A DNA stretch of 41,837 nucleotides. It comes from a virus. The DNA is taken from positions 1-41,837 of IMG/VR virus record IMGVR_UViG_3300028883_000018, one strand, 5' to 3'. The notes under the pieces are model-generated. The model did not search any database. It saw only the letters and a list, made by a program, of their open reading frames with translations, and was not told where the DNA came from. A program made the translations under genes and the position numbers. Positions 7,185 to 20,250 of the stretch are shown one piece after another (within the stretch, counting starts at the first letter, position 1; the number at the start of each line of letters is the position of its first letter).

Positions 7185-7805
7185 CTACAACATGCCTGAT
7201 ACCTTGGTATTGAAGAGTTGTAAATCAAGAATTTCTTTTACATCATTAATAATCTTAATAACTCGCTTATCGTATGTGTCTCTTGCTGTGCCTTCTATTA
7301 TAGCGTGAATCTTATCGAAAGCATGCATAACAGTCGTATGATGCGTTTTGTTGGCTGCCGTGGCTATCTCTTGGTAGGTATATCCAAATTTTACTGCGAA
7401 CCACATGAAGATATGTCTTGCAACAGTGTGATAAGTTTCTCTGCTGTCCGATTCAATAACCTTTGGGCTCAATCCCATTGCTTTGGATATTGCGAGTTTT
7501 AACCTGTCAAGATCAGTCATTGTGTTTGTCCTGCGTTTGTATGTGCTGAGTATCTTAATGGCTGTATCAGCATCATCCACAACATACGTAACGCCTTTCG
7601 AATTTCTTATTCGCTTCATCTGATATTGCTGGAGCTTTGTTGGCAACTTACCGGGCTGTTTGACCTCGAGAGCAACGAATCTGCCATTGATACAAACTAA
7701 TAAATCGGGAGTGCCGTTTTTGTTCGCTGCGATTGTCTTTACATAGTAAATGCCCGCTTCTTTCATGTAATTAATGATTTTCGTCTGGATTTGCTGTTCG
7801 GTCAT
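7185..7805 (-). CDS. VRR-NUC nuclease fused to DnaA domain IV
   Basis: Residues 1-90 form a VRR-NUC domain of the PD-(D/E)XK superfamily: GTPDLLV (Asp34), ALEVKQPG (Glu47, Lys49) and Gln59/Gln60. Such domains act as Holliday-junction or structure-specific nucleases in phages. Residues about 118-172 match DnaA domain IV, the helix-turn-helix that binds DnaA boxes: ARHIFMWFAVKFGYTYQEIA and then KTHHTTVMHAFDKI, equivalent to the DHTTV signature of DnaA. A short linker (91-117) joins them. No AAA+ domain is present. It has a strong GGAGG site and overlaps the upstream gene. Probably a nuclease targeted to origin-like sequence. Confidence 0.8.
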   Translation of the reverse strand: MTEQQIQTKIINYMKEAGIYYVKTIAANKNGTPDLLVCINGRFVALEVKQPGKLPTKLQQYQMKRIRNSKGVTYVVDDADTAIKILSTYKRRTNTMTDLDRLKLAISKAMGLSPKVIESDSRETYHTVARHIFMWFAVKFGYTYQEIATAANKTHHTTVMHAFDKIHAIIEGTARDTYDKRVIKIINDVKEILDLQLFNTKVSGML

Positions 7806-8089: not shown

Positions 8090-9301
8090 TCAAAATATCT
8101 GTAATTGATTAGTAAAATGTTCTATTCTTTTGTTGGCTATCTCGCAATATTCGCTTGATAGTTCGCTTCCGATCCAACGTCTGCCAAGCTGGTGAGCCGC
8201 TATTGCCGTCGTGCCTGAGCCCATGAAGGGATCGTAAATGATCTGATCGTCTCTGGATACCATCGTTATCAGATATTTCATTAAGTCAATCGGCTTCATT
8301 GTAGGATGTCGGCTTTCTCCACGCTCTGCCGGGCTTACTTTTGCACAATAGAAGAAACGAGCGGCAAGACCGGAGGAAGGTGGGAAATGACGATGCAAAA
8401 TTTGAAATTTCCCATATATGCCATTTGGCGATTGATAGTTGTTGTTAATATCTATTTGCCTATTTACTTTATCTGTTGGCTTTATTTCGCCGCTATGTGT
8501 TTCTGGAAAAATATCAAGCACACAATCGCTGCCATCGTGAATTAGATTGGCAGGGAAGCGACCTTTGTCAATCTTATACATTTCAAAGCCATTTCCATCG
8601 GGTGCAATATCTATTTTTTTGTTATGTTTGCCTCTGCTTACGTTATTTAAGCCTGTTTTTATCCTGCTGTCAGATTCTTTAGTCTTATCAATCCCCACCC
8701 TACACGCATCAATATTTATTCCGCCGGTCTCGTGTTTCATTACGTTGAGAGCAACAGTTTTCTCACTTAGCGGTTTGCGTGCCATGCAGACGGGCTCGTG
8801 TGCTGGTTTTAGGTCTGTGCCCCAACCGTCCCAATGTTTGGCGAGGTCGGAAGAGGGGTTTGAAATAATATCAGTCCGTTCAACTGTCTTGCCCATAATT
8901 CCTGCTGATTTGCCGGCGTTTTGCCCACGATAAAATTCTCCCACAACTTCCCTTTCCTCTCCAAAATAATTATCTATCGCTTTTGAAATATCCAAACTTT
9001 TAGGGAAGCCAGAGCCATAAACCCACTCGATCATATTTCTGATCTCGAAGCCGGCATCTTCGATATTAACAGCCATCCTGTGATAAGTTCTTGCACCGGA
9101 GAATGCTAATAAATAACCTCCCGGCTTCAGCACTCTCAGACATTCTTCAAATATCTCTTTCGATGGCACATCGTAATCCCATTCTTTACCCATAAACCGA
9201 AAACCATACGGCGGATCGCTCACTATTGCATGGATATAATTATCAGGCATCCGCTTCATTGTCTCCAGACAGTTTTCGTTATATATTTTGTTTAATTCCA
9301 C
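8090..9301 (-). CDS. DNA methyltransferase, beta-class amino-methylating type
   Basis: Transfers a methyl group from S-adenosylmethionine to an exocyclic amino group of adenine or cytosine. The catalytic motif IV DPPY is at residues 29-32 and the SAM-binding motif I DPFMGSGTT at 357-365, the order of beta-class enzymes. The ~200 residues between carry the target-recognition region. DPPY favours adenine-N6. No restriction partner is visible, so it is probably an orphan enzyme protecting phage DNA. Translation starts at GTG (9301) with GAGG seven bases upstream; the gene overlaps the helicase gene by ten bases. Confidence 0.9.
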   Translation of the reverse strand: MELNKIYNENCLETMKRMPDNYIHAIVSDPPYGFRFMGKEWDYDVPSKEIFEECLRVLKPGGYLLAFSGARTYHRMAVNIEDAGFEIRNMIEWVYGSGFPKSLDISKAIDNYFGEEREVVGEFYRGQNAGKSAGIMGKTVERTDIISNPSSDLAKHWDGWGTDLKPAHEPVCMARKPLSEKTVALNVMKHETGGINIDACRVGIDKTKESDSRIKTGLNNVSRGKHNKKIDIAPDGNGFEMYKIDKGRFPANLIHDGSDCVLDIFPETHSGEIKPTDKVNRQIDINNNYQSPNGIYGKFQILHRHFPPSSGLAARFFYCAKVSPAERGESRHPTMKPIDLMKYLITMVSRDDQIIYDPFMGSGTTAIAAHQLGRRWIGSELSSEYCEIANKRIEHFTNQLQIF

Positions 9302-10521
9302 GCATAATCCTCTTTAAAATATTTCACTGTATAAGATTTTTTGTCGAGCACTGCTTTGTATATCTTTTCTTCAATACCGCCATCGCTGAACAGCCACACA
9401 ATTTTATTCTGTGCTGTCTTATCTTTGGCTTGGATGCGTGCTCTCATTTGCCAGTATAGTTCAGCGGAAAAATCTATGTTGAAAGCTATCAATACATTCG
9501 CTCTTGATAGATTAATGCCCATAGCTCCGGATCGCACTTGTGAAATAAAAACATCGGCTTCTCCTCTGTTGAACACCTCCGGATCAGTTGTAATGTTTTT
9601 CAGGTGCTTCCAAAGAAGCAATTCTTCTGCTTTGTACTTGTAGTAAACAGCGAATGGCGGCTCGTAATGTTTCGCTATGTATCTTGCCTTGCTTTCGTCT
9701 AAAATTGCTATGCCATTGTCAGTGATTATTGTCCCTGAATACAGCTGGTGCAATTTGTTCTGCAACGATACCGCCGTTTCGCATACTATCTCATGTCCGT
9801 CTTTTAGTTTGTAATATTTGTGTTTTCTCAAGTAATCTGCCAGATTGTATATGCCATCCACCATTTTCACTTTTACAACTTCTTCAGCCATGTCTGTCCG
9901 TTTGAATGATGCCTGCTTTTGCGTATATGTTATCATTAGCGGTTCAATATATGGCATGATCTTCTCTATCTTCGCCTCTGAATAATCATTGTGCGGAGTG
10001 CCATTGAAATAACGCTGTTTGATATTAACGAACTCTTTTGCCCATTTATAAAAATTCTTCCACTCTTTGAACGGTGAATTATCTGAAATCCATAATTGAT
10101 GGTAAATATCTGAATAACTTTCAGGTGTTGGAGTGCCTGACAACAATATCAAATAATTATCTTTTACGATCTCTTTCAGATTCTTTGTCCGTAATGATGG
10201 CTTGCCATGCTTCTTTAGCGAATGAGCTTCATCAACAATTATCAAATCATATCGTTTTTCGCATTTGCTTAGCTTCTCATAGTTGATAACGGTTAATGCC
10301 ATGTCAGAATACCCCGTCATCTCATAATCGCTTAGAATGCTTGAAATCGCTTTTTTCTTTGTTACAAATAATACATTCTTTGCACCAACCATTTTTGCCG
10401 TTCTGAGTGCTGTCAATGTCTTTCCTACTCTCATCTCGAATGCGAAATAGCAGATTTTATACTTTCTAAGCGTTTCTGTGCCTCTGTCGCTAAGTTCGAT
10501 CTGGTGTGGATAGTATTCCAT
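9292..10521 (-). CDS. SNF2-type superfamily 2 helicase
   Basis: An ATP-dependent DNA translocase or helicase of the compact SNF2-like type common in phages. The Walker A sequence FEMRVGKT is at about 28-35, VDEAH at 96-100, motif III SGTP at 128-131, and C-terminal motifs SGAMGINLSRA and QMRARIQ (about 345-370). At 409 aa it contains both RecA-like lobes and nothing else. It begins in the middle of the upstream deoxyribosyltransferase-like gene (90-bp overlap), with AGGGAT upstream of the ATG. Probably acts in phage replication or recombination. Confidence 0.9.
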   Translation of the reverse strand: MEYYPHQIELSDRGTETLRKYKICYFAFEMRVGKTLTALRTAKMVGAKNVLFVTKKKAISSILSDYEMTGYSDMALTVINYEKLSKCEKRYDLIIVDEAHSLKKHGKPSLRTKNLKEIVKDNYLILLSGTPTPESYSDIYHQLWISDNSPFKEWKNFYKWAKEFVNIKQRYFNGTPHNDYSEAKIEKIMPYIEPLMITYTQKQASFKRTDMAEEVVKVKMVDGIYNLADYLRKHKYYKLKDGHEIVCETAVSLQNKLHQLYSGTIITDNGIAILDESKARYIAKHYEPPFAVYYKYKAEELLLWKHLKNITTDPEVFNRGEADVFISQVRSGAMGINLSRANVLIAFNIDFSAELYWQMRARIQAKDKTAQNKIVWLFSDGGIEEKIYKAVLDKKSYTVKYFKEDYAWN

Positions 10522-12013: not shown

Positions 12014-12262
12014 CTTACTACATAGTTAAATGTTTGATTTATAACAACTTAGAAAAATAGTGTAGTAAGTGTAGTAAGTTGTTTCCCATAAAGAGGTAAC
12101 GCTGCTGTGTTTCTTTTTTCTCTCCCCTATATATATTATAGTATATATATATATTTTATATAGATTATACTTACTACTTACTACAAAATGGTGTAAATTA
12201 TAGAAATATAGACAAGTTGCAATGTAGTAAGCAGCGTGAATTTTGCTTACTACACTTACTAC
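12014..12262. repeat. Iteron cluster with AT-rich core: candidate replication origin
   Basis: This ~250-bp gene-free stretch contains eight copies of the octamer GTAGTAAG or its complement CTTACTAC, at 12014, 12062, 12071, 12170, 12177, 12224, 12246 and 12255. The pair at 12062-12078 and the pair at 12246-12262 form a perfect 17-bp inverted repeat. Between them is an AT-rich block of alternating TATA (about 12128-12165). It lies directly beside the primase-polymerase/helicase gene, which fits an origin bound by a phage initiator; an operator cluster is the alternative. Confidence 0.6.
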
Positions 12263-12263
12263 A

Positions 12264-14408
12264 TTAAAATTTTGGTATGTCATTCTCGTTTTCCTGTGTT
12301 TCTTTATACATTGTGTCAGCCCATTTGATCCTCCAGACGTACTTCGATTGCTTATTTACTCTTTTCATAACACGCTGGAAGCCATTGCGAGCGAGTACTT
12401 TGCCAAGCAAGTTTGGTCTTACTTTAATAGTTCGTTTTAATCTGTCTGAAAGTTGATCAATGATCTCTGTTGAAGTTAGTTCTTTCACGTAAGGAGAGTT
12501 GTCATCATCAGCCGGTTTGTCCAAATAGTTTGTAACGTAATCATCTTCTGCAATTGATAACTGATAACGAGCATTTCTCATATTTATCTGTCTTACTTCC
12601 GTTTGATTGAACCAATAGCGGTAGCCATCATTAAGCAGATGAAGTGCCTGAGCCCATAGCTGATCTTGGTCTATCTTTGCGTCCATATCCACTTCAACAA
12701 CATTAACGACAAGGAAGCGGCGAGAGCCGGTCATGTCGAGCAAGAACTGTTCGTTATTGATAGAAGCGATAAAAGAGGCATGCCTTCTCATTGTATCTTC
12801 ATATCTGCCATAAGGTCTGCGAACCGAAATGTATGCCATGGTTATCAATGATTTGAGGTGTCCGATATTCTCGTGTGAAGCTGATTCGAGCTCATCCAGA
12901 TTTATAATGAATTTCTCAGCTATCGCTATCTTTGAGTCTTTGTCTCGTGGATCGATGTCGCCATTTTTATAATATTCTTTGATAAGCTGTTGAGGCACAA
13001 TAAATTTTTCGATAGATGTTGTTTTGCCAACGGATTGCTCTCCAATCATTACTATACATGTATGATTTACTGATTTGCCAAGAGCTGTTGCCACTGCTGC
13101 CACGAACCATTTCTTTAGATATTCATACCAATATGCAGATTGTTCCGGCTCTACTTTTATTATCTCATCGGCAAGATCAAAAAAGCGGTCTTTCTTATCC
13201 CATGTGGGCAATGATTTGAAATAATCGTCGAATGGATCGTAATCAGGCGAAAAATTTGATTCAACGATATTTTTGAGCCTGTCAAGACCAACAGGTTGTC
13301 CTACATTCTGGAAATACCTCCAGATATCTTTGATCATCCTGTCTGACATATCTTGCCATTCCTTGCCTTCTTTATATTGCAGGCGTCCTTTGATAGTATT
13401 ATATCTAAAATCATACAACTCTTTGAGCTTATTTTCGATCCATTGAGCAGATTGGTTTTTCTTCTGCTTAGTATTTGGCTCTGCATTCAGCGTTTTAACG
13501 GCTGTTGTTGCCGTTCCATATCCTTTTTGGTGTAAATCATTGGCAGCAGCTTTAAAGTCGCCTGAGTGCCTTAAATAAGCGTATGTAGCGAATTTATCGA
13601 GTGCCTTATCATTTGGGAACTCTGTTGATGTGGAGAATACGTAGAGCTTATTTGGTACGTGGTTAAATGTTGCCGATGGATGATCTGATACGCCAGGTCT
13701 TGATAGATGGTATTTCTGTCCATCCTGACGGAATATTGACCAGCCGTTATCGAGTAATTCACTTATTATGTCTCCTGAGCGGTTAAAAGCATCGCCTGGT
13801 CTGTCTTCAAACGTGTTCTGCGTATAATCATTTGAGTGGACCATCTCTGGCGGATCAATCTCATGGAAAGAGCGTGCCACTGCTAAGAGTCGATCACGTT
13901 CTTCGATAGATATTGTTGGTATTTTATCGAATGAGTTCTTTACGAGCTTGTATCCGGGAGACGGAGCTGCAATGATTATGCCTCCTTGACCACGAGTCTC
14001 AAAGATTACATCCGGCTTGCCTTCGCTATTCAGTCGCTGGGCAAGTTTCTGGTTTCCTTCTATCACTTCACAACGATAAATAATGTGATAACCTCCGGAT
14101 TGAGTTTTTTCGATGATCAGGCGATTCCAGAGGTCATCATCATTAAGGATTTCTTTGAACAATACCATATTCTCTTTAGCATCTCCGAAATGATTATCAG
14201 CGTCTATTGTCTCGAGCATTCCTGAAGGAGAGCCGCATACGATAGAAAGACCTTTCACACCATTTGCGAACCATTGCTGGACGAGCTTAAGCGTTGGTCT
14301 TTCTGTTGTGTATTGCTTCCAGCTTGAGAGCGTTGGTCGCTTTGTCGTTGGATTAGCAGGAAGAACACAGATATTGTTCTCATAATATTTAATCGCTATT
14401 TTCAGCAT
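12264..14408 (-). CDS. Primase-polymerase fused to VirE/VapE-type helicase
   Basis: A 714-residue replication protein. The N-terminal part (about 1-190) is a bifunctional DNA primase/polymerase of the archaeo-eukaryotic type, with acidic pair TIDADNHF (about 66-72), SGGYHIIYR (about 105) and a GGIIIAAPS strand. The C-terminal part (about 380-640) is a VirE/VapE-like superfamily 3-related ATPase with Walker A GEQSVGKTT (about 454-462) and Walker B IINLDELES (about 500), then an arginine-finger region SRRFLVVNV. It would open the origin and prime synthesis. It starts inside the end of the upstream small gene and ends beside the iteron cluster. Confidence 0.88.
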   Translation of the reverse strand: MLKIAIKYYENNICVLPANPTTKRPTLSSWKQYTTERPTLKLVQQWFANGVKGLSIVCGSPSGMLETIDADNHFGDAKENMVLFKEILNDDDLWNRLIIEKTQSGGYHIIYRCEVIEGNQKLAQRLNSEGKPDVIFETRGQGGIIIAAPSPGYKLVKNSFDKIPTISIEERDRLLAVARSFHEIDPPEMVHSNDYTQNTFEDRPGDAFNRSGDIISELLDNGWSIFRQDGQKYHLSRPGVSDHPSATFNHVPNKLYVFSTSTEFPNDKALDKFATYAYLRHSGDFKAAANDLHQKGYGTATTAVKTLNAEPNTKQKKNQSAQWIENKLKELYDFRYNTIKGRLQYKEGKEWQDMSDRMIKDIWRYFQNVGQPVGLDRLKNIVESNFSPDYDPFDDYFKSLPTWDKKDRFFDLADEIIKVEPEQSAYWYEYLKKWFVAAVATALGKSVNHTCIVMIGEQSVGKTTSIEKFIVPQQLIKEYYKNGDIDPRDKDSKIAIAEKFIINLDELESASHENIGHLKSLITMAYISVRRPYGRYEDTMRRHASFIASINNEQFLLDMTGSRRFLVVNVVEVDMDAKIDQDQLWAQALHLLNDGYRYWFNQTEVRQINMRNARYQLSIAEDDYVTNYLDKPADDDNSPYVKELTSTEIIDQLSDRLKRTIKVRPNLLGKVLARNGFQRVMKRVNKQSKYVWRIKWADTMYKETQENENDIPKF

Positions 14409-14812: not shown

Positions 14813-15499
14813 TCATTTAAATTCATTCGAATTATTAATTCTCTTGATACATCTATCCATCATAATGATCTCATCTCTTACCGGCATTCTCATATTTGGC
14901 TTATAGCGTTGTTCTACCGGCATTTTTGTGTTAAGTACTGAACCTACTGATCTTGCTAACATATTTATTTCCATATGATATTGCCTGTATGCTATTGAGT
15001 GGAAACTGTCATTGCGATAGATCGGCACCATTGCCTTTTCAATGATATATCCTGCATCCGGATTCTCATCAATAAAATGTGTTGTTACGCCAATTGGATG
15101 CTCATTATAGAAAGCCCATTTGAGAGCATCGAGCCCACGAGAATAAGGTAGGTATCCGGGATGGGCATTAATGATTTTGAAATTATCCGTAATAGATTTA
15201 TCTAAGATGTTAGCACCCCCGATTAATATATAATCATAATTCCATAGTCTAAGGTGTGTATGAAGATCTGCTGTTGAGCTATATTTGAGATAAAGAATGT
15301 CCAGCATACTACAGAAATCTTGATTACTGATATTTGTCTGCATTTCTGGTCTGTGCCTGTATAAAGGCTTATGCTCTGGTCTCTCGACAAACGGCATTGC
15401 CAGAAAATTAATGTAGAAACATTTAGATTTCAGTATTAACGCCAAATCCTGTGTCTTTCTGTGGCTGTATGTGTTATATGTTAATATCGCTATTTTCAT
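14813..15499 (-). CDS. Formyltransferase-fold protein (GART/Fmt family)
   Basis: A 228-aa enzyme of the family that moves formyl groups from 10-formyltetrahydrofolate to an amino group (PurN, Fmt, sugar-nucleotide formyltransferases). Counting from the ATG at 15499, the signature NAHPGYLP gives Asn111 and His113, and DENPDAGYII gives Asp148, a spacing close to that of the PurN and Fmt catalytic triad (Asn, His, Asp). The acceptor is unknown. The start at 15499 has AAAGGA four bases upstream; the longer frame to 15571 reads through an inverted-repeat leader and is unlikely. Neighbours are modification and replication genes, so the acceptor may be a nucleotide or sugar. Confidence 0.8.
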   Translation of the reverse strand: MKIAILTYNTYSHRKTQDLALILKSKCFYINFLAMPFVERPEHKPLYRHRPEMQTNISNQDFCSMLDILYLKYSSTADLHTHLRLWNYDYILIGGANILDKSITDNFKIINAHPGYLPYSRGLDALKWAFYNEHPIGVTTHFIDENPDAGYIIEKAMVPIYRNDSFHSIAYRQYHMEINMLARSVGSVLNTKMPVEQRYKPNMRMPVRDEIIMMDRCIKRINNSNEFK

Positions 15500-15510
15500 T
15501 TTATCCTTTC

Positions 15511-15615
15511 GATCATGTTTTAATTTGCAGGAGGTCAGCGTTGTTGTTTTAGAAGAATAGTAAGTTTTCATAACAAAGCTGCATATCTGCTGACCTCCGC
15601 ATTTACTGCATGATC
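15511..15615 (-). promoter_or_regulatory. Nested inverted-repeat leader before the formyltransferase gene
   Basis: Two nested perfect inverted repeats lie just upstream of the formyltransferase start: outer arms GATCATG (15511-15517 and 15609-15615) and inner arms GGAGGTCAGC with GCTGACCTCC (15530-15539 and 15589-15598), with a 49-nt apical region. Read on the minus strand the foot of the structure ends six bases before the Shine-Dalgarno AAAGGA. It could be an mRNA structure that controls translation, or a protein-binding DNA site. Confidence 0.5.
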
Positions 15616-19242: not shown

Positions 19243-19286
19243 GGCAGGCATGCAAGAATCGAACCTGCACTAACCATTGGCTCGCT
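19243..19286 (-). repeat. Minihelix copy 1 (degenerate, terminator-proximal)
   Basis: The most diverged copy. The 5' acceptor strand GCGAGCC is intact but the 3' strand reads TGCCTGC, so only part of the 7-bp stem forms. The T-arm is kept as TGCAGG-TTCGATT-CTTGCA with one G-U pair. Its upstream flank is nearly identical to that of copy 2 for about 70 nt, indicating a recent local duplication. Confidence 0.7.
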
Positions 19287-19396
19287 TCTGTTCTGTTATG
19301 TCTTGTTGAGTTGTGTTTTGTCCTGTTATGTTATGTTTTGTTGCGTCTCTTTGTGTTAAGTTAGGTTCCTTTCCGTTACGTTTGTTTTTGACTTCA

Positions 19397-19440
19397 GGCG
19401 AGCTTGCAGGAATCGAACCTGCTCTAACCATTGGCTCGCT
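19397..19440 (-). repeat. Minihelix copy 2
   Basis: Acceptor strands GCGAGCC and AGCTCGC (one terminal mismatch) with a single A between T-arm and acceptor. T-arm GCAGG-TTCGATT-CCTGC. Followed by CTGAAGTCA. The linker next to it shows the 5-nt period most cleanly, about 19 units. Confidence 0.8.
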
Positions 19441-19545
19441 TCTGTTCTGTTATGTTTTGTTGAGTTATGTTTTGTCCTGTTATGTTATGTTTTGTTGTGT
19501 TGCTTTATGTTGAGTTAGGTAAAATTTTGTTTAGTTTTGACTTCA

Positions 19546-19588
19546 GGCGAGCCGCAGGAATCGAACCTGCTTTAACCATTGGCTCGCT
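19546..19588 (-). repeat. Minihelix copy 3
   Basis: Perfect 7-bp acceptor stem GCGAGCC/GGCTCGC directly abutting the T-arm. The linker reads AATGGTTAAA, one base different from the other copies. Followed by CTGAAGTCA. Confidence 0.8.
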
Positions 19589-19703
19589 TATTTTTTGTTG
19601 TGTTATGTTTCGTTTAGTTTCGTTAATTTATGTTATGTTAAGCTCCGTTTTGTTACATTTTATTTAGTTGGATTTGGTTAAGTTAAGTTGCGTTGTGGCT
19701 TCA

Positions 19704-19747
19704 GGCGAGCTTGCAGGAATCGAACCTGCTCTAACCATTAGCTCGCT
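19704..19747 (-). repeat. Minihelix copy 4
   Basis: Acceptor GCGAGCT pairs perfectly with AGCTCGC: compared with copy 3 both strands have changed (C-G to T-A), a compensatory change that supports an RNA stem. Followed by CTGAAGCCA. The linker between copies 4 and 5 contains a small hairpin CCCTA-ttgcg-TAGGG (19772-19786). Confidence 0.8.
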
Positions 19748-19851
19748 TACGTCTTGTTTTGATTTGTTGATCCCTATTGCGTAGGGTTTCGTTCCGATAG
19801 ATTCAATTAAGTTACGTTTAGTCGGGTTATGTTCGTTATGTTTTGACTTCA

Positions 19852-19894
19852 GGCGAGCCGCAGGAATCGAACCTGCTCTAACCATTAGCTCGCT
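19852..19894 (-). repeat. Minihelix copy 5
   Basis: Acceptor GCGAGCT with GGCTCGC gives seven pairs including one U-G wobble. The 14 bases beyond its 5' end are identical to those of copy 4, indicating duplication of neighbours. Followed by CTGAAGTCA. Confidence 0.8.
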
Positions 19895-20049
19895 TACGTC
19901 TTGTTTTGTTATGTTACGTTAGGTTTTTGTTCAGTTGTGTTTTGTTACATTACGTTCCGTATTGTACTATTAAGTTAAGTTAAGTTAAGTTATGTTGTGT
20001 TTCTTTTGGTTGTGTATCGCTAATGTCCATTTTTTTAGCATTGGCTTCA

Positions 20050-20092
20050 GGCGAGCCGCAGGAATCGAACCTGCTCTAACCATTGGCTCGCT
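20050..20092 (-). repeat. Minihelix copy 6 (leader-proximal)
   Basis: Perfect acceptor stem GCGAGCC/GGCTCGC and T-arm. Followed by CTGAAGCCA and then a longer linker (155 nt) towards copy 5, which includes five tandem AACTT units. First copy to be transcribed on the minus strand. Confidence 0.8.
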
Positions 20093-20250
20093 TAAGTTTT
20101 GTTGTGTTTAGTTGCGTTAATTTTTGTTCAGTTACGTTTTGTTGCGTTTATTTCGTTAATTTATATTCCATTTCGTTGTATCCGATAGGGTTTAGTTATA
20201 TTCGGCAAGACCCCGTTGCGTTCCATTTGGTAGCGTTATGATATAAAAAC

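Follow-up and report, generated by a model that had tools for sequence, protein, structure and literature searches.

One open reading frame of a 41.8-kb virus record (the whole stretch of DNA analyzed here, referred to hereafter as the window) joins a VRR-NUC nuclease domain to the DNA-binding domain IV of DnaA, and the presence of both domains in this one protein is confirmed, lying far beyond chance. Our main interest is in the conserved gene pair behind this fusion; because related phages carry both parts as adjacent separate genes, VRR-NUC plus DnaA_C is apparently a recurring and undescribed module of phage DNA replication. The fusion and the conserved pair in many phages together suggest that phages reuse the DNA-binding domain of the host initiator in their own replication, and provide a testable role for small DnaA-like phage proteins that are currently annotated as functionless or as initiators. 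In our preferred reading, to which we give a probability of roughly 0.4, the fused protein is a dimeric branched-DNA resolvase that would operate with an SNF2-type helicase and be held by its DnaA half at non-canonical phage sites, having been fused from the gene pair and possibly yielding a second product from Met96.

Domain content of the fused protein

The fused frame starts at an ATG (7805–7803) with the SD ggagga and contains no internal stop. Its parts, and two replication genes of the window, are:

7185..7805, minus strand: fusion ORF of VRR-NUC and DnaA domain IV, 206 aa (from profiles and predicted folds)
7533..7805, minus strand: VRR-NUC nuclease domain, residues 1–91, with E3, D34, E47, K49, and Q59
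7521..7532, minus strand: short linker RTNT, residues 92–95; its DNA includes an SD-like AGGA (7532–7529)
7517..7520, minus strand: ATGA with internal ATG (Met96); the +1 frame stops here
7188..7520, minus strand: DnaA domain IV-type part, residues 96–206 (Pfam Bac_DnaA_C at 7308–7499)
9292..10521, minus strand: SNF2-type helicase, a VRR-NUC neighbor in related phages
12264..14408, minus strand: Prim-Pol/VapE replication protein, same cassette

The PHROG_93 endonuclease profile matches residues 1–100 (E=4e-23), Pfam VRR_NUC reaches 16.1 bits on the fused protein (under its curated cut-off of 23.8), and Pfam Hjc gives a weak match to the N-terminal half. VRR_NUC is recognized in 17 of the 18 members of the nuclease alignment, the exception being the window protein itself, and E3, D34, E47, K49, and Q59 are invariant across homologues (alignments of 7 and 18 sequences); phage endonucleases were also matched by tblastn, the best being that of Nitratiruptor phage NrS-1 (46% over 80 residues). 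AlphaFold2 predicts the nuclease fold confidently to about residue 91, and the best PDB matches of this prediction are the VRR-Nuc proteins 4qbl, 4qbn, and 4qbo. The nuclease half possesses the PD-(D/E)XK VRR-Nuc fold with the D, E-x-K, and Q active-site residues in place; an N-terminal nuclease domain of Holliday-junction type, proposed in an earlier note on this DNA, is borne out by PHROG_93, by the VRR_NUC-matching homologues, and by the predicted fold, and the residues that it singled out (Asp34, Glu47, Lys49, and the KTHHTTV stretch) are all found in the protein.

Standalone phage and bacterial VRR-Nuc proteins (PF08774; PMC4103454; the three structures above) have the same fold and active-site residues, and in phages are associated with an SNF2-type helicase gene, as in the window; they are single-domain proteins, whereas the fused protein adds DnaA domain IV after the nuclease. 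Those that have been characterized are dimers that cleave four-way DNA junctions (PMC4103454), and with junction-cutting relatives and a helicase neighbor, the nuclease half is best interpreted as processing branches in phage replication or recombination. By analogy with the characterized enzymes, it would resolve branched phage DNA as a dimer, with the SNF2-type helicase acting alongside it. Junction resolvases generally find their substrates through DNA structure, and not through a domain that reads sequence.

In the C-terminal half, Pfam Bac_DnaA_C matches residues 103–166 at 49.6 bits (E=4e-13; cut-off 31.5 bits), such that of the two families named in the earlier note PF08299 (Bac_DnaA_C) was recovered above its cut-off in the window protein and PF08774 (VRR-NUC) only below. 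The two halves were modeled apart, the DnaA half being of low confidence in the full-length model; modeled alone it has a mean pLDDT of 85 (AlphaFold2), and its ten best PDB matches by Foldseek are all DnaA, with domain IV structures at the top. Profile and predicted fold agree with the proposal of a C-terminal DnaA domain IV, and the AAA+ part of DnaA is missing, as had also been noted: Pfam gives no AAA+ match, which we looked for as a sign of a DnaA initiator, in the 206-aa protein.

The gene pair in related phages and the origin of the fusion

Both domains share one frame only in the window among the loci scanned by profile, and no further fusion was found in another 80 VRR-NUC loci, in 395 Bacteroidota genomes, or in the phage and plasmid collections, from which near relatives of the window record may be missing; the earlier note was likewise not aware of the architecture as a standard one. 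When viral contigs were scanned with the complete fused protein, 12 pattern matches appeared, with no relative among them; the DnaA half yielded nothing in an alignment-based scan and had no tblastn match in phages. The first 25 kb of the window are without a near match in the phage collection.

As separate genes, the two parts recur side by side. In MW202828.1 the VRR-NUC gene overlaps a distinct DnaA_C gene, and of 80 VRR-NUC loci (the best matches listed from a viral-contig scan with a VRR-NUC alignment), 42 proved in a profile search to have a same-strand DnaA_C gene less than 1 kb downstream, a count that is not a population frequency because the sample consists of best matches and the query alignment included MW202828.1, where the pair was already known. 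Counted by cluster, the pair is present in 25 of 53 at 95% identity and in 8 of 27 at 80% identity. Pfam Bac_DnaA_C is recognized in 22 of 23 aligned members of these small downstream proteins, whose genes often overlap the stop codon of VRR-NUC. Their starts precede that stop by a few to ~50 bases or else follow it, mostly by 270–410 bases; in the later-starting cases a small intervening gene is often present after VRR-NUC. A second scan, with another VRR-NUC sub-type, revealed the pair in none of the 80 loci listed, with one weak upstream profile match. The small phage DnaA_C proteins (UOF82498.1 of MW202828.1, and those of Flavobacterium phages such as snusmum9-1 gp028) comprise DnaA domain IV alone, at similar length and among early genes; they are the products of separate genes, whereas the DnaA part of the fused protein is joined to a nuclease by a link of ~4 residues.

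The usual cassette order is D5/VapE-type protein, SNF2-type helicase, VRR-NUC, and DnaA_C, with a Bacteroidota genome (G122) displaying the order primase, DnaA_C, helicase, and VRR-NUC. The pair is present in three of the 11 loci from bacterial assemblies, which are mainly Bacteroides, Phocaeicola, Prevotella, and Flavobacteriia-type, and the cassette phages are mainly those of Bacteroidota. Among the matches listed, the window primase is closest to gut-virome records and Cellulophaga phages; the host of the window phage probably belongs to Bacteroidota. In locus L109 a Mor transcription activator gene (333–575) overlaps the VRR-NUC end, in the slot of DnaA_C elsewhere, and locus L221 has a small gene after VRR-NUC (513–800) similar to it.

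The junction within the fused ORF retains the appearance of two genes. In alignments, Met96 falls on the initial Met of standalone DnaA_C proteins. It is preceded by an AGGA-type signal (24 of the 44 window genes have such a signal, compared with 12.5% of ATGs overall), and it is part of an ATGA at which the +1 frame would end, as in locus L018, where the VRR-NUC and DnaA_C genes overlap at ATGA. On these three grounds the fusion resembles an operon pair that has been joined, and its probable origin is two overlapping genes brought into a single frame; a one-base shift or a lost stop would be enough to join them. The same one-base shift brings back the ATGA overlap of L018, and this, with the occurrence of the fusion in only one record, could indicate a sequencing or assembly error in a normal overlapping pair. 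We find this improbable: the nuclease frame remains correct through the final helix of the domain (to residue 91), and any error would therefore have to lie within ~15 bases that hold no long homopolymer. The joined frame, seen in a single record, is probably real.

Met96 could alternatively be the working start, with the joined form incidental and the nuclease and DnaA_C parts acting as two separate products. The match of Met96 to the standalone start, the AGGA at good spacing before it, and the two genes of relatives all suit this explanation; the frame is nevertheless open throughout, with a strong SD at the upstream start, from which the joined protein would be expected as well, and we regard an exclusively two-product arrangement as possible without favoring it. 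Under the preferred resolvase reading, internal initiation at Met96 may give a second product, a free DnaA_C protein, in addition to the fusion.

A different role for the DnaA_C part is raised by the slot after VRR-NUC, which in a few genomes is filled by a Mor-type activator (in G373 the VRR-NUC end and the activator gene overlap), an occupancy that fits a regulator instead. DnaA_C would here be a transcription regulator that ends the early operon and turns on late genes, the nuclease having been joined to it through an accident of gene order. DnaA is itself a known transcription factor, and the lysozyme gene comes directly after the fused ORF; in other phages, however, the DnaA_C gene adjoins DnaB or helicase inside the replication genes. 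The G373 overlap keeps a late-gene regulator in consideration, unlikely as we judge it to be.

The DNA target of the DnaA half

The E. coli DnaA positions 399, 407, and 433–436 are those that we take to contact DNA, with roles as in the DnaA-box complex (1j1v). The window protein keeps Arg399, Arg407, and His-Thr-Thr 434–436, and has Thr at 401, Val at 415, and His at the base-contact position 433 (Asp in E. coli); across the family, N, D, S, H, or T occupies position 433 and Ala predominates at 435. DnaA boxes number 4 in the window (6.0 expected) and 53 in the 80 related loci (61 expected), with no enrichment in either; 12 phage records that carry the cassette contain 58, compared with 45 matches to the reversed pattern, with no clear enrichment and no dense group. 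These counts bear on enrichment and not on binding. The fused protein has in common with DnaA domain IV (PF08299; 1j1v, 3pvp) the helix-turn-helix fold and several DNA-contact positions, and differs from DnaA in its want of AAA+, in His for D433, and in belonging to a phage without canonical-box enrichment. Targeting to DnaA-box-like sequences, as put forward in the earlier note, finds no support in these counts or in the His at the D433 position.

The same results bear on the suggestion that the protein is a weapon against, or block of, the host origin, whereby the DnaA half would bind host DnaA boxes and the nuclease would cut or occupy oriC. The domain IV fold and the retained contact positions are compatible with such a role, but His replaces D433 in the window protein and relatives vary at this position (with 435 mostly Ala), the characterized standalone VRR-Nuc enzymes resolve junctions as dimers (PMC4103454), relatives keep the domains as separate proteins, the pair sits within a phage replication cassette, and PADLOC returned no match for the fused protein; we consider host-origin attack very improbable. 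Resolution of phage replication intermediates at an origin, the other role suggested, is supported in its link to phage replication, through the conserved gene neighborhood, and is not supported in its addressing by DnaA boxes.

We favor the resolvase reading, in which the DnaA half would tether the nuclease at particular phage DNA sites with a sequence other than the canonical DnaA box. It draws on the presence of both domains, the invariant catalytic residues, the pair in 42 of 80 loci listed versus 0 of 80 for the other sub-type, the cassette context, the retained contact positions, and the junction cleavage by VRR-Nuc proteins; counting against it are the one fusion example, the many VRR-NUC loci that have no DnaA_C partner, the Mor-type activators in the slot after VRR-NUC, and the failure of the box and iteron counts to yield a target site. 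A precedent is TnpA_REP subclass 2.1.2 (PMC6006769), which likewise cuts DNA and carries Bac_DnaA_C at its C terminus, and whose flanking repeats are unlike DnaA boxes; it is, however, an HUH transposase of bacterial genomes and unrelated to VRR-NUC, whereas the fused protein has no HUH Y1 core and no transposase match (Pfam, predicted-fold search), its N-terminal half being VRR-NUC.

Repeats and other features of the window

The sequence CTTACTAC is repeated eight times in about 250 bp (12014–12263), adjoining the end of the Prim-Pol/VapE gene and beside an AT-rich TATATATATA stretch, and this cluster is a candidate phage replication origin. A re-targeted DnaA domain IV might place the resolvase at set phage sites such as the CTTACTACA iterons at 12.0–12.3 kb, where it would process replication intermediates, the fused protein then being a single-chain version of a two-protein system widespread in Bacteroidota phages; we hold this more specific version to be doubtful. 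Iteron clusters were few or none in five IMG/VR cassette records and MW202828.1, and because the cluster is missing in most of the cassette phages examined, a link between the window iterons and the DnaA half is only a possibility. MW202828.1 carries, at 44264–44548, four repeats of GTGTCGTTAACGA type within 300 bp, which are possible iterons.

On the minus strand at 19250–20095, the window contains six exact-pattern copies of a tRNA-like minihelix, spaced by ~150–200 bp and alternating with NNAAC pentamer repeats. Each has a 7-bp acceptor-like stem and a 5-bp T-arm with a TTCGATT loop, without an anticodon arm; ARAGORN found no tRNA, nothing scored above the Rfam cut-off, and an exact copy was not found in viral contigs. 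Two DNA methyltransferases are present among the replication genes of the window, and a formyltransferase-fold protein is encoded among the early genes (14813–15571; Pfam Formyl_trans_N, E=3e-12).
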